From: Amycolatopsis alba DSM 44262
GTDB lineage: Bacteria; Actinomycetota; Actinomycetes; Mycobacteriales; Pseudonocardiaceae
Assembly: GCF_000384215.1 (NCBI RefSeq)
Contig: NZ_KB913032.1
Span: forward strand, 2,071,021-2,135,020
Direction: 5' to 3'
DNA length: 64,000 nt
Part shown: positions 5,773-23,981 of the stretch, one piece after another
Numbering within the stretch: the stretch's first letter is position 1
How the letters are laid out: every line of letters begins with the position of its first letter
Translations under genes and position numbers: made by a program
Notes under the pieces: model-generated
The model's database searches: none
What the model saw: the letters and a program-made list of their open reading frames with translations, nothing else
Told to the model about the DNA's origin: nothing

Positions 5773-6357
5773 CGGCGTCAGGGTGCTCCCGGTCAGGCTC
5801 ACGGTCTCCACCGCCTCGACGTAGCTCCGCGCGACGTCCGCCGCCGGGGTGCCGCCTTCCGGTTCACCGAGCGCGGCGAGCGTTTCGCGCACCCAGCCTG
5901 GGCTGACAGCGTTGACCCGGAGGCCACGCGGCAGTTCACGGGCCGCGGCGGCGACGAACGCTTCGAGGCCGGCGTTGGTCAGGAAACCGAACGCGCTGCC
6001 GCGCAACGTCTCCGGGATCCGGCCCGCGGTCAGCGTGACCGAGCCGCCATCCGGCAGATACGGGACCGCGTGCCGCAGCAGGAACACCTGGCCGAGCAGT
6101 TTCCCTTGCAGCCCTTGGACGAACTCTTCATCGGTACCGCCGTCGACCGGAACCAGCGAGCCGCTCCCCGCGCAGCACACGATGTGGGCGATCCCCGGTT
6201 CGGCGGCGAAGACGGCGTCGAGCGTGTCGGGCCGCTCGACGTCCACCTTGACCTCCCCGGAGCGAGACGCGGGGAGCACGGTGTGCCCGCGTGCGGTGAG
6301 CGCTGACGAGACCGCGGCCCCGATCGTCCCGGTGGCACCTACCACGAGGATCTTCAT
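5770..6357 (-). CDS. Short-chain dehydrogenase/reductase
   Basis: 195 residues from the ATG at 6357, preceded by AAGGGAAAG. The N-terminal VVGATGTIGAAVSSAL is the dinucleotide-binding motif. NAG-like and active-site features follow: CCAGSGS, then a FGFLTNAGLEAF stretch where the usual catalytic Y-x-x-x-K is replaced. The enzyme is therefore an atypical short SDR of the YwnB/short-chain epimerase-like kind. It starts 15 bases after the dnaE stop and may be transcribed from it. Substrate is unknown. Confidence 0.8.
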   Translation of the reverse strand: MKILVVGATGTIGAAVSSALTARGHTVLPASRSGEVKVDVERPDTLDAVFAAEPGIAHIVCCAGSGSLVPVDGGTDEEFVQGLQGKLLGQVFLLRHAVPYLPDGGSVTLTAGRIPETLRGSAFGFLTNAGLEAFVAAAARELPRGLRVNAVSPGWVRETLAALGEPEGGTPAADVARSYVEAVETVSLTGSTLTP

Positions 6358-20894: not shown

Positions 20895-21311
20895 TCAGCC
20901 GATGATCTCGACGGGCTCCTCGGTGATCTCCCCGTCCACGATCCGGTAAGACCGGAACTGGTGCGAATCGGGGTCCTTGGTGGAGACGAGCACGTAGTGC
21001 GCGTCGGGTTCCGAGGCGTACGAGACATCGGTGCGGGACGGATAGGCGTCGGTCGCGGTGTGCGAGTGGTAGATGACCACCGGGACCTCGTCGTTGGCGT
21101 CCATCTCACGGTAGAGCCTGAGCAGGTCGCCCGAATCGAATTCGTAGAACGTGGGCGAGCGCGCCGCGTTCAGCATCGGGATGTATCGCTCGGGGCTGTC
21201 CGATCCCTCGGGACCGGCGATCACCCCGCACGCCTCATCGGGGTGGTCACGACGGGCATGGGCGACGATCTCGTCGACGAGTTCACGGCGGATCCGGAGC
21301 ACACCGCACAT
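20895..21311 (-). CDS. mec: JAMM/MPN+ metalloprotease Mec (releases cysteine from CysO)
   Basis: 138 residues from the ATG at 21311. The JAMM zinc motif HSHTATDAYPSRTD supplies His82, His84 and Asp95, and Glu26 in PDEACG is the general base. In mycobacteria Mec hydrolyses CysO-Cys to free cysteine. The gene is the first of the mec-cysO-cysM operon; 70 bases separate it from cysO. An upstream GTG at 21338 would add nine residues. Confidence 0.93.
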   Translation of the reverse strand: MCGVLRIRRELVDEIVAHARRDHPDEACGVIAGPEGSDSPERYIPMLNAARSPTFYEFDSGDLLRLYREMDANDEVPVVIYHSHTATDAYPSRTDVSYASEPDAHYVLVSTKDPDSHQFRSYRIVDGEITEEPVEIIG

Positions 21312-21357
21312 CTTAGGTGCTGGACGCGCCTGGTCCACACTCTGAGATTGCCGCCAC

Positions 21358-21858
21358 TCAGAGCGTGTAGACGATCGGTTCGGCAGGATCGACGTAGACC
21401 GCGGCGGTGATCATGCTCTCGAACTGGTTGAGCCATAAAGACTTCACCTCGCGATCCTTCTTCGCGTAGCGCTCGTCCGGCGGAGCGGACTTCCACCGCG
21501 GTTTGCGCAGATACCGGGACTGGGCCTGAACGAGCGCGAGACGCAGGTCACGCACACCACCCCGGTCGAGGACCAGCACCTGCCCACCCGGCCAGGCAAC
21601 GAGAACGCGGGCGACGGTGGCGGCGACCTCGCTCCGCATGGCCTGGCCGTGCCTCGCCCGGAAACCGGCGCTGTCGGCCTTCCGGGAATAGGCGTCCGGG
21701 AACAACACCTCGTCGGGCACCCCATCGGGCCCCGCGGGGTCGGCGGCCAGCGCGGCCGCGAAGTCGGTCAGGATGAAGCGCAGCACCTCGGCCACGTTCT
21801 CCGTCATCTCGATCCGGGTACCGTCGCCGTCGTGACTTATCCGCGCCGCGTCACGCAT
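21358..21858 (-). CDS. DUF2017-like protein, second copy, paired with a ClpS-like gene
   Basis: 166 residues from the ATG at 21858. It has the same element order as the DUF2017 protein at 23119: an N-terminal helix with EVLRFILTDF, then VLFPDAYSRKAD (compare [12 protein letters not shown]), a helix-strand middle ending RDLRLALVQAQSRYL (compare [13 protein letters not shown]) and the C-terminal WLNQFESMITAAVY (compare [13 protein letters not shown]). Overall identity is low, so it is a distant paralog by my alignment. Its start overlaps the ClpS-like stop as ATGCGTGA. It is extra relative to the mycobacterial order, which goes directly from P1 peptidase to mec. Function unknown. Confidence 0.65.
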   Translation of the reverse strand: MRDAARISHDGDGTRIEMTENVAEVLRFILTDFAAALAADPAGPDGVPDEVLFPDAYSRKADSAGFRARHGQAMRSEVAATVARVLVAWPGGQVLVLDRGGVRDLRLALVQAQSRYLRKPRWKSAPPDERYAKKDREVKSLWLNQFESMITAAVYVDPAEPIVYTL

Positions 21859-22099
21859 GGCGGTCCTTCCGCAGCTTCGCGGTGAGGCCGCGAAGCTGGA
21901 ACGCGGCGGCGAATCGCTCCGCCTCTGGCCGGGGCAGGGGCGTGAGGTCGGCCTTGCCGTCACGGTGGATGTCTTCGGCCATTCGGCCCCCGTCGGCGGC
22001 GGACATGCCGAGAACCTCTTCGAGGACCAGCATCACTCCGGCGAAGGAATTGATGTGGTCGTTGTGGATCTCGATGATCCACGATCCCCCTTGACGCAT
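21851..22099 (-). CDS. ClpS-like adaptor, divergent second copy
   Basis: 82 residues, a ClpS core without the long N-terminal tail. IIEIHNDHINSFAGVM matches the substrate-pocket segment of ClpS (ND at 13-14) and EDIHRDGKADL matches the VHxxG segment (His45). The distance from Asn to His is 32 residues, exactly as in the main ClpS at 23673. The end AERFAAAFQLRGLTAKLRKD fits the last helix and strand. Pocket changes (Met to Phe/Ala near position 19-20, Val to Ile44) suggest altered N-degron preference. It lies 30 bases after the P1 peptidase stop and is coupled to the DUF2017-like gene. Confidence 0.72.
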   Translation of the reverse strand: MRQGGSWIIEIHNDHINSFAGVMLVLEEVLGMSAADGGRMAEDIHRDGKADLTPLPRPEAERFAAAFQLRGLTAKLRKDRHA

Positions 22100-22129: not shown

Positions 22130-23122
22130 TTACTCAAAGGCCTCCGGCCAGACGTCGCGGTACGCGCGCATGCCCCCGGCCGACGTGGCGTTCAGCACAC
22201 CGTGCACCATCGCCCGCCCGAACACGCGCGCGGCGGCCGAGCACAGCGTGTCCAGCACCATCGCGCGCCGCGCCGCCGCGACGGGTCCCACGCCGCCGGG
22301 CAGTTCCCGGTCGCCGGTCGCCAGCGCGAACACCGTGTCGCCGTCGAACATCGTGTGCGCCGGGCGGACCGCCCTGGCGAGACCGTCCTGCGCGGCCACC
22401 GCGAGCCGTCGCGCCTCCGCTTTGGACAGTGCCGCGTCGACCGCGACCACGCCGATGGTCGTATTGAGCCCGGACGCCTTCGCCTCGACGTCGCCGGGCC
22501 GATCGGGCCAGCGGACGCCGAACTCGCCGTCGACCTCGTGATCCGCCGCGAAAGCGCGGCCGGTCGAGAGGTCGACGGCCTCGCCGGCGGCGTTCACGGC
22601 GGCGACGACACCGACGGTGAACTCACCGACCCGCTCCGAAGCGGTCCCGATCCCGCCTTTGAGTGATCCCGCCTTCGCACCGGCGCCCGCGCCGACGGTC
22701 CCCAGCGGCACAGGACCGCCGACAGCCGCTTCGCAAGCCGCGTAGCCGAAGGAAGCGTCCGGGCGATTGCCCCAGTCACCGCGCGGCAGGTCGAACAGCA
22801 CCGCCGCGGGCACGATCGGCACCACCTCGTGCGGCTCCGTCCCGACCGGGATCCCCAGGTTCCGCTCGGCGAGCCAGCGCATGACGCCGTCCGCCGCGGC
22901 CAGGCCGTACGCGCTCCCGCCGGACAGGCAGATCGCGTTGACGTGCTGGACCAGGTTCTCCGGCTCCAGCAGGTTGGTCTCGCGCGTGCCGGGCGCGCCG
23001 CCGCGCTGGTCGACGGCCCCGACGGCGCCGCCGGGGACGAGCACGACCGTCGTCCCGGTCGCCCAGCCGCCGCCGACCCGCTCGTGGTGCCCGACCAGCA
23101 CGCCGGGAACGTCGGTGATCAC
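22130..23122 (-). CDS. P1 family peptidase (DmpA/NylC N-terminal-nucleophile hydrolase)
   Basis: 330 residues. QRGGAPGTRETNLLEP, LSGGSAYGLAAADGV and AGSLKGGIGTAS are signatures of the S58/P1 group. GLNTTIGVVAVDAAL places Asn220-Thr221 where NylC-type enzymes cleave themselves to free the catalytic Thr, so autoprocessing is predicted. Rv1333 occupies the same place in mycobacteria. The GTG start overlaps the DUF2017 stop as GTGA. Substrate unknown (D-aminopeptidase or amidase activity is possible). Confidence 0.88.
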   Translation of the reverse strand: MITDVPGVLVGHHERVGGGWATGTTVVLVPGGAVGAVDQRGGAPGTRETNLLEPENLVQHVNAICLSGGSAYGLAAADGVMRWLAERNLGIPVGTEPHEVVPIVPAAVLFDLPRGDWGNRPDASFGYAACEAAVGGPVPLGTVGAGAGAKAGSLKGGIGTASERVGEFTVGVVAAVNAAGEAVDLSTGRAFAADHEVDGEFGVRWPDRPGDVEAKASGLNTTIGVVAVDAALSKAEARRLAVAAQDGLARAVRPAHTMFDGDTVFALATGDRELPGGVGPVAAARRAMVLDTLCSAAARVFGRAMVHGVLNATSAGGMRAYRDVWPEAFE

Positions 23123-23676
23123 GATGTCAGCGACTGGATGAGGGTCTCCTGCACCCAGGTCAACCAGTGGTAGACGCCGAGATGCGGCGCGCGGGGATCA
23201 TCTTCGGGCAGCTCGTCGGGCATGTCCTCGGTGACGTCGAGCGCGGTGCCCAGGGCCAGCCGGACGTCGTTGAGCGCGCCGAGCCACGCGTCGGCCTGCT
23301 CGAAGGTCAGCCGCACGTTCCCGCCGTCCCTCGGCAGGGTGTCCAGCACGATCTTGGCGACGCCGACCTTCTTGTCCAGCAGCTCCGGCTCGTGGATCGA
23401 GCGCATCGCGGCGGCCGAGTCGAGGTCTTCGCGGGTCGGGTTGTCCGGGTCCAGCTTGTGGAAGTCCGGGAGCAGCCGCGAGAGCACCGGATCGTCCGGT
23501 GACTCCGTCGGGCCCGTGCGGATCCCGGTCAGCTCCGCCAGCTCGTCCTGCGGCGCCTCCTCGGCGCGCGCGGTGAGCATGTCCTCCAGCTGGCTGACCA
23601 GACCGCGCAGGACCGCGGCCTCCTGCTGCTCGAACCCGGCGACGATGGTCTCGCCCTTGCGGCGCCATCCGTTCAT
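23119..23676 (-). CDS. DUF2017 family protein (Rv1332-like)
   Basis: 185 residues from the ATG at 23676, which overlaps the clpS stop as [36 protein letters not shown] and [15 protein letters not shown] are typical of DUF2017, always found next to clpS in actinobacteria. It has sometimes been annotated as a regulator, but no DNA-binding motif is seen. The constant linkage suggests a role with ClpS/ClpCP. Confidence 0.88.
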
Positions 23677-23981
23677 GAAGGCTGCTCCATCGTGGCCCAT
23701 AGGCCGGCCGCGTGCAGTTTCGCGACGTCGACCTCGACCTTCTCCTTCGAACCGGAGGACACGATCGCCTTGCCCTTCTGGTGCACGTCGAGCATCAGCT
23801 TCGTCGCGTGATCCCGGCTGTAACCGAACAGCTTCTGGAACACGTACGTCACGTACGACATGAGGTTCACCGGATCGTTCCAGACGACCGTCCGCCAGGG
23901 CTTGTCCTCAGAGACGACTTCTACTCCCTGTGGATCAACCTGCGTCTGCTCGGATGCGACAGGCGTGGACATGCACTCCAT
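23673..23981 (-). CDS. clpS: ATP-dependent Clp protease adaptor ClpS
   Basis: 102 residues. [20 protein letters not shown] holds the N-degron pocket residues (Asn35, Asp36, Met41) and [12 protein letters not shown] holds His67. The protein delivers substrates with bulky N-terminal residues to ClpC. ATG at 23972 is an alternative start. It is divergent from pncB, as in mycobacteria (Rv1331/Rv1330c). Confidence 0.93.

Follow-up and report, generated by a model that had tools for sequence, protein, structure and literature searches.

Gene organization of the locus

The DNA analysed here is a stretch of 64,000 nucleotides from Amycolatopsis alba DSM 44262, in the following called the window. On its minus strand it contains, in this order, clpS1, a DUF2017 gene, a P1/S58 family peptidase gene, clpS2, duf2017-2, mec, cysO and cysM, the last two names being assigned by eye. 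The canonical clpS (23673–23972) encodes the 99-residue ClpS1 with 25 residues before Trp26 and scores 83.8 bits in Pfam and 149.8 bits against NCBIfam NF000668 (cut-off 86). It is followed by the canonical, AosR-type DUF2017 gene (23119–23676; Pfam 188.5 bits), whose 185-residue product contains no cysteine. The peptidase gene (22130–23122; Pfam Peptidase_S58, 216.8 bits) lies between both pairs and its stop is located 30 bp before clpS2.

The second pair consists of clpS2 (21851–22099), encoding a divergent ClpS of 82 amino acids, and duf2017-2 (21358–21858), encoding a divergent DUF2017 protein of 166 amino acids that also lacks cysteine. Both open reading frames had been proposed in an earlier, sequence-only reading of this DNA, and the gene call confirms them as coding by codon usage. 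That reading had also ascribed an identical overlap to both pairs, which is not the case: according to the ORF coordinates the canonical genes overlap by 4 bp (23673–23676) and the second ones by 8 bp (21851–21858). Downstream follow an intergenic stretch (21312–21357, minus strand), which was compared with 14 Amycolatopsis loci, and mec (20895–21311, with the start set by codon usage), the gene of a JAB peptidase with a Pfam Prok-JAB match and the first member of mec-cysO-cysM. An alternative 147-residue form of mec starts at 21338, and the Prok-JAB score of 106.3 bits was measured on that form. The genome, one contig of 9.8 Mb, contains two ClpS and two DUF2017 matches, so the second pair represents the only second copies.

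For mycobacteria it had been stated that the P1 peptidase gene leads straight to mec. Among five loci with the family code f8, which we regard as mycobacterial, this is true for two; the other three (L193, L195 and L196) contain clpS, DUF2017 and the S58 peptidase with no mec match in the next ~1 kb.

The second ClpS: fold, pocket and N-terminal tail

ClpS2 matches the Pfam family ClpS (PF02617) with 29.2 bits (E 8.1e-7) at a cut-off of 23. Its AF2 model, built from 8 sequences, has a pLDDT of 89.9 and shows the ClpS core fold: in Foldseek it superimposes on the ClpS of M. smegmatis (9ayn/9ayo/9b1p) with TM scores of 0.87–0.90 and an rmsd of 0.9–1.1 Å, and these structures rank above Agrobacterium ClpS2 (4yjm). 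The distance between Asn13 and His45 equals that between Asn32 and His64 of ClpS1, namely the 32 residues noted already in the sequence-only reading, and the alignment between them is ungapped. Neither a missing ClpS or DUF2017 profile match nor a fold other than that of ClpS, all of which were looked for, occurred.

Asn13, Asp14 and His45, the pocket residues by which ClpS grips the alpha-amino group of an N-degron, are all retained in the window copy. The pocket is nevertheless altered as had been proposed, since the gate methionine is replaced by phenylalanine (Phe19) and the equivalent of Met62 by alanine (Ala41). Pocket positions were obtained by alignment to E. coli ClpS, with what we take to be its residue numbering (Asp35, Met40, Met62, His66). 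Among the 56 ClpS2 rows, in which some loci are present twice, the Asp35 position is invariably Asp (56/56), the His66 position is His in 28, Asp in 12 and another residue in 16, the gate position Met40 is widely variable with Met in 4, and Met62 is likewise Met in 4 of 56. Canonical ClpS rows have His and Met62 in 39 of 39 cases and the gate Met in 38 of 39. The two nearest ClpS2 orthologues (P0005 and P0006) already carry Asp at the position of the pocket histidine. Moreover, ClpS2 has proline at the residue aligned with E. coli ClpS E79 (two alignments chained), which presumably is a ClpA-contact residue.

The N-terminal extension is absent from the window copy, which has 6 residues at most before the conserved tryptophan (Trp7). 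At least 14 residues are possible before this Trp in all 119 canonical-like ClpS rows and at most 8 in 34 of the 83 ClpS2 rows, the window copy included, some loci being counted twice. The other 49 ClpS2 rows allow an earlier start and hence a longer tail, their nearest start codon being found mostly 4 to 9 residues before Trp. According to a passage of PMC9663308, E. coli ClpS inserts its N-terminal extension into the pore of ClpA, and delivery is inhibited when this extension is blocked.

Two tandem ClpS genes, both before DUF2017, are seen in the canonical locus of one genome (G004; L038, 4398–6463), and the second of them has an altered pocket segment.

DUF2017 proteins and the name AosR

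DUF2017-2 matches Pfam DUF2017 (PF09438) with 33.1 bits (E 8e-8; cut-off 25) over positions 4–123 of the 179 profile positions. The element order read earlier from the letters is recovered, as the landmarks LFPD, DLRLAL and the terminal W helix are all present and align with those of relatives. The AF2 model has a pLDDT of 82.2 and a pTM of 0.76. Searches of the PDB with this model revealed no clear relative and no DNA-binding fold, an absence that proves little, and sequence searches of DUF2017 against known structures found no relative either. A docking site on DUF2017 therefore cannot be argued, because no structural relative was found by sequence and no clear one by fold. No paper naming DUF2017 was found in the literature searched.

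The canonical DUF2017 reaches 232.4 bits against NCBIfam AosR (NF051854) and remains under the equivalog cut-off of 260, and DUF2017-2 has no NCBIfam match. AosR (Rv1332) belongs to the DUF2017 family and is listed in NCBIfam as an oxidative stress transcription regulator. The AosR study in EMBO J of 2021 reportedly describes an intrasubunit disulphide, a redox switch that needs two cysteines. Since both DUF2017 proteins of the window (P0001 and P0003) contain none, this disulphide cannot form in them. In sets of loci that overlap a little, at least two cysteines are present in 1 of 37 canonical DUF2017 proteins of Pseudonocardiaceae, in 12 of 49 at the level of the order and in 1 of 29 best-scoring ones at the level of the phylum. 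Judged from these sets, the conserved feature of the canonical family is its linkage to ClpS and not the disulphide, and the function of a redox transcription factor of the AosR type fits poorly here.

Distribution and pairing

Close relatives are few: two others were found for ClpS2 at E values up to 0.001 among 5.8 billion sequences searched, and a sequence search for DUF2017-2 gave eight others. Divergent pairs were detected across the family, DUF2017-2 being present by its first profile, which was built from these relatives, in 65 of 390 Pseudonocardiaceae genomes and 18 of 46 genera, and within Amycolatopsis in 8 of 80 genomes (first profile, A1), so that it is absent from 72. At least two ClpS matches occur in 70 of the 390 genomes (hand count). 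Carriers include Actinokineospora fastidiosa, Saccharopolyspora kobensis, a Lentzea and Actinosynnema pretiosum, and proteins from Haloechinothrix and Kibdelosporangium are also among the members.

The pairing of both genes is almost strict. In the fetched loci, 55 of 57 DUF2017-2 ORF rows either are immediately preceded by ClpS on their own strand or share a frame with it, a count that (like those of pocket and tail) retains the duplicates L039/L113, window/P0002 and refetched loci; both remaining rows stem from a single decayed gene (L110). The reverse test covered 19 of the 20 genomes that have a second ClpS but were not detected by the first DUF2017-2 profile (G004 was left out), and here 21 of 22 extra ClpS genes have DUF2017 directly downstream. 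The gene at 6357–6581 of L219 is the sole one of these 22 without an adjoining DUF2017 match. Among 49 spaced second pairs the genes overlap by 4 bp in 21, are separated by a 1-bp gap in 10 and overlap by 8 bp in 5; L113, which is the same place as L039, was excluded from these spacing counts and from the cysteine counts.

Canonical DUF2017 behaves in the same way. At the level of the order ClpS is located upstream at 48 of 49 loci, which were drawn from 153 genomes with a match, namely the 30 with the highest scores (the window and 29 others) and 20 picked for spread; the single miss begins at a contig edge. At the level of the phylum, where DUF2017 was detected in 69 of 149 genomes, upstream ClpS is found at 29 of 29 loci, which were those with the highest scores among 71 matches. 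Outside the order, one locus (L260, genome G590) has two close DUF2017 matches after a ClpS with a short N-terminus.

Relocation, tandem copies, fusions and decay

At 19 places the pair or its remains occur with no canonical DUF2017 within the 13.8–16 kb examined. The neighbours of these relocated pairs differ and include a MerR-type gene (L104), hsp20 (L095), msrA two genes away (L092) and a macro-domain gene (L098), while the Lentzea-type site is flanked by a subtilase gene and a class I tRNA-synthetase-like gene. Two pairs in tandem are found in L105 and L224.

In four genomes and at two unrelated sites ClpS and DUF2017 are encoded in one open frame. The fusion from Saccharopolyspora (L095) has both Pfam domains above cut-off. 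The remaining three (L206, L214 and L215) occupy one Lentzea-type site where other strains carry two genes; Pfam recognizes ClpS in all three and DUF2017 in L214 alone, below cut-off, and the DUF2017 profile built in this analysis detects DUF2017 in each of them. L118 and P0029 are apparently shorter hybrids with an internal deletion, and by our reading L110, L118, P0029 and L124 are decayed copies.

Some sites deserve description. In L104 (7155–8370) and L125, both from Lentzea, the pair follows ~20–50 bp after the MerR-type gene that ends a dnaK-grpE-dnaJ-like run, as if appended to a heat-shock operon. In L095 (7864–9470) hsp20 lies beside the fused pair; it also adjoins the pair of Saccharopolyspora spinosa (L124), which appears decayed. 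Around relocated pairs Pfam identities refer to the MerR, Hsp20 and MsrA genes only; dnaK, grpE and dnaJ were recognized by eye. A general association of relocated pairs with chaperone genes was rejected, as most other sites have no such gene by eye. In L087 and L093 (8054–12134) a run of genes for 82–86 amino acids and a gene for 907 amino acids, conserved in the two genomes, is found beside the pair.

Pairing, relocation, tandem copies and fusions lend good support to the view that ClpS and DUF2017 constitute one module, and this suggests that both work as one unit. The sequence-only reading had anticipated this module with DUF2017 as obligate partner; near-obligate describes it better.

Origin and evolutionary rates

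In a tree of joined ClpS and DUF2017 sequences a single branch (SH-aLRT 100) separates all 50 second pairs from 52 canonical pairs of Pseudonocardiaceae (11 of 42 used) and other families of the order. The tree is unrooted and contains long branches, for which the program warns of joins between them; L110, L113, L116, L118 and L093 were left out. The distance matrices of ClpS2 and DUF2017-2 correlate with r = 0.816 (n = 50), the largest value of 1000 permutations being 0.146, and the distances of canonical pairs from other families correlate too (r = 0.754, n = 41). The tree supports the earlier proposal that both genes were duplicated together.

In the 14 Amycolatopsis loci without the pair the gap between peptidase and mec measures 60–128 bp in ten and 449–491 bp in four, and no ClpS or DUF2017 remnant was found in them by tblastn at E 1e-3. 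The stretch ahead of mec is near-unchanged in close relatives without the pair (such as L227, L230 and L236), and hence the second pair ends just before 21312–21357. With no remnants and this stretch nearly unchanged, presence and absence therefore look clean. In 5 of the 14 pair-less genomes (L226, L228, L229, L231 and L237) the empty site that separates mec from the S58 peptidase gene contains, as seen by eye, an inverted repeat around GCGTTTCGTC...GACGAAACGC.

In ten comparisons dN/dS ranges from 0.10 to 0.85 for the second pair, always below 1, versus 0.01–0.17 for the canonical pair. Between the window and L035 the dS of the pair is 0.64–0.72 and that of eight flanking genes 0.05–0.24, i.e. 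an excess of about 3–16 times, which points to an exchange in place with a divergent allele. This excess is clear in L035 and weak in L115, and the others of the ten comparisons show about equal dS with raised dN. High dN, decayed copies and the absence from 72 of 80 Amycolatopsis genomes (first profile) indicate that the second pair is dispensable and perhaps relaxed. A pairing conserved in many genera together with dN/dS below 1 places it beyond chance.

Possible function of the second pair

In our view the pair slightly more probably than not encodes a heteromeric Clp cofactor, whose two proteins would act together on ClpC1 as a co-adaptor or an anti-adaptor. The second pair is then a rapidly evolving copy of an ancient unit of clpS and DUF2017 genes in actinobacteria. 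As ClpS2 keeps the ClpS fold, it probably docks on the ClpC1 N-domain. It should not deliver N-degron substrates by itself, because there is no room for a tail and many relatives have lost the pocket histidine. In the suggested mechanism ClpS2 would supply the docking domain and be bound by DUF2017-2, which may bring a client or block a site, and the pair could thus redirect or restrain ClpC1P. AAA_lid_9 matches number only two in the window genome and likewise in 5 of the 8 Amycolatopsis genomes with a hit to the first profile. Two is the number that we would expect for ClpB plus ClpC, the identity of both proteins being assumed, and with only these two matches ClpC1 is the likely target. ClpI, described in a passage of PMC10149685 as an extra Clp unfoldase class of Actinomycetota, was considered as dedicated partner of ClpS2 and rejected as not needed, since by count there are two AAA_lid_9 matches only.

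Reciprocal pairing, relocation, tandem pairs, fusions, the distance correlation, the phylum-wide linkage in 29 best-scoring loci and the loss of the tail are counted for this cofactor. Against it we count that neighbourhood and fusion indicate functional coupling and not binding, further the name of the AosR regulator, the docking site that cannot be argued for DUF2017, the longer tail possible in 49 of 83 rows, Pro at the E79 position, the ClpS of L219 without DUF2017 and the signs of a dispensable, perhaps relaxed pair.

The regulator name leads to another explanation, in which DUF2017-2 would be an AosR-like DNA-binding regulator and ClpS2 a dedicated adaptor delivering it to ClpC1P, a degradation switch perhaps acting on mec-cysO-cysM. 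NCBIfam uses the name for the canonical DUF2017, these three genes are termed SigH/AosR-activated in a passage of PMC11439070, and the second pair is situated directly before the stretch upstream of mec. Nevertheless this appears rather unlikely, considering the lack of cysteine in both window proteins, the rarity of two or more among the canonical ones of the fetched loci, the DNA-binding fold missing from the fold searches (which, again, proves little), relocated pairs around which no mec-like gene was seen by eye, and a ClpS2 without delivery tail. The last point also bears on the specialised N-degron adaptor favoured in the sequence-only reading, i.e. a ClpS2 whose altered pocket accepts other N-terminal residues and which, helped by DUF2017-2, hands them over to ClpC1P. 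Such specialisation has a precedent in cyanobacterial ClpS paralogues that differ in their N-residue preference (a passage of PMC7966870), and the ClpS fold, the invariant Asp and the replacements of gate Met and Met62 are in accordance with it. Yet His is kept in half of the rows (28/56) and exchanged for Asp in 12, the nearest orthologues P0005 and P0006 have Asp, the gate residue varies widely, and in the window copy no more than 6 tail residues are possible instead of an extension. For this copy the adaptor view is weakened by the sequence comparison, although Asn, Asp and His are still there, and we regard it as quite improbable.

Its patchy occurrence (8 of 80 Amycolatopsis genomes) at many sites, overlapping genes, decayed copies and the dS excess over the flanks in the comparison with L035 would also suit a selfish or conflict-related two-gene cassette, toxin–antitoxin-like, in which ClpS2 would be the labile or the neutralising partner. 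This is highly improbable in our opinion: the pair derives from a resident one that is linked across the phylum (best-scoring loci), of ten comparisons one has a clear excess and another a weak one, and we know of no toxin–antitoxin-like behaviour of the canonical ClpS–DUF2017 pair. Finally, the pair could be a duplicate under relaxed constraint that has lost most of its function and has stayed at its old place by chance. The dN/dS values, elevated relative to the canonical pair, and several decayed copies are expected in this case; frames that stay open and a pairing conserved in many genera, ratios still below 1, the matched divergence of both genes and the fusions are not, and we give this explanation a small likelihood.

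Relation to known systems and significance

The closest known relative is the canonical locus clpS-DUF2017-P1 peptidase-mec-cysO-cysM, which belongs to the same gene run and has the same families, order, strand and gene overlap. The second pair differs from it in being far divergent, patchy and relocating, in the tail-less ClpS2 of the window and in the loss of pocket residues in many relatives. AosR/Rv1332 shares the DUF2017 family and the locus with the window proteins, but these have no cysteine, the second copy is without NCBIfam match and the canonical one stays below the cut-off. To our knowledge the cyanobacterial ClpS paralogues and Agrobacterium ClpS2 are single genes without DUF2017. 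What cyanobacterial ClpS1/ClpS2 (PMC7966870) and Agrobacterium ClpS2 have in common with the present case is a second ClpS. The plant plastid ClpS1–ClpF, a proposed co-adaptor according to PMC7966870, is a precedent for a ClpS that acts with a second lineage-specific protein on ClpC. ClpF is described there with UVR and YccV domains, whereas Pfam finds in DUF2017-2 only DUF2017.

In a broader, tentative view, to which we assign a chance clearly below even, ClpS and DUF2017 would be two subunits of one Clp cofactor throughout the phylum. Transcription control by AosR would then be derived or indirect in some lineages, and the tail-less, pocket-altered versions that arose by expansion in Pseudonocardiaceae would serve ClpC1 either as dedicated anti-adaptors or as co-adaptors for particular clients. 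In actinobacteria ClpC1 is targeted by antibiotics, and the logic of its adaptors is poorly understood. Linkage to ClpS, movement as a unit and natural fusions make both the binding between ClpS and DUF2017 and its effect on ClpC1P directly and cheaply testable, and tail-less ClpS2 proteins would offer natural variants that separate docking from delivery.
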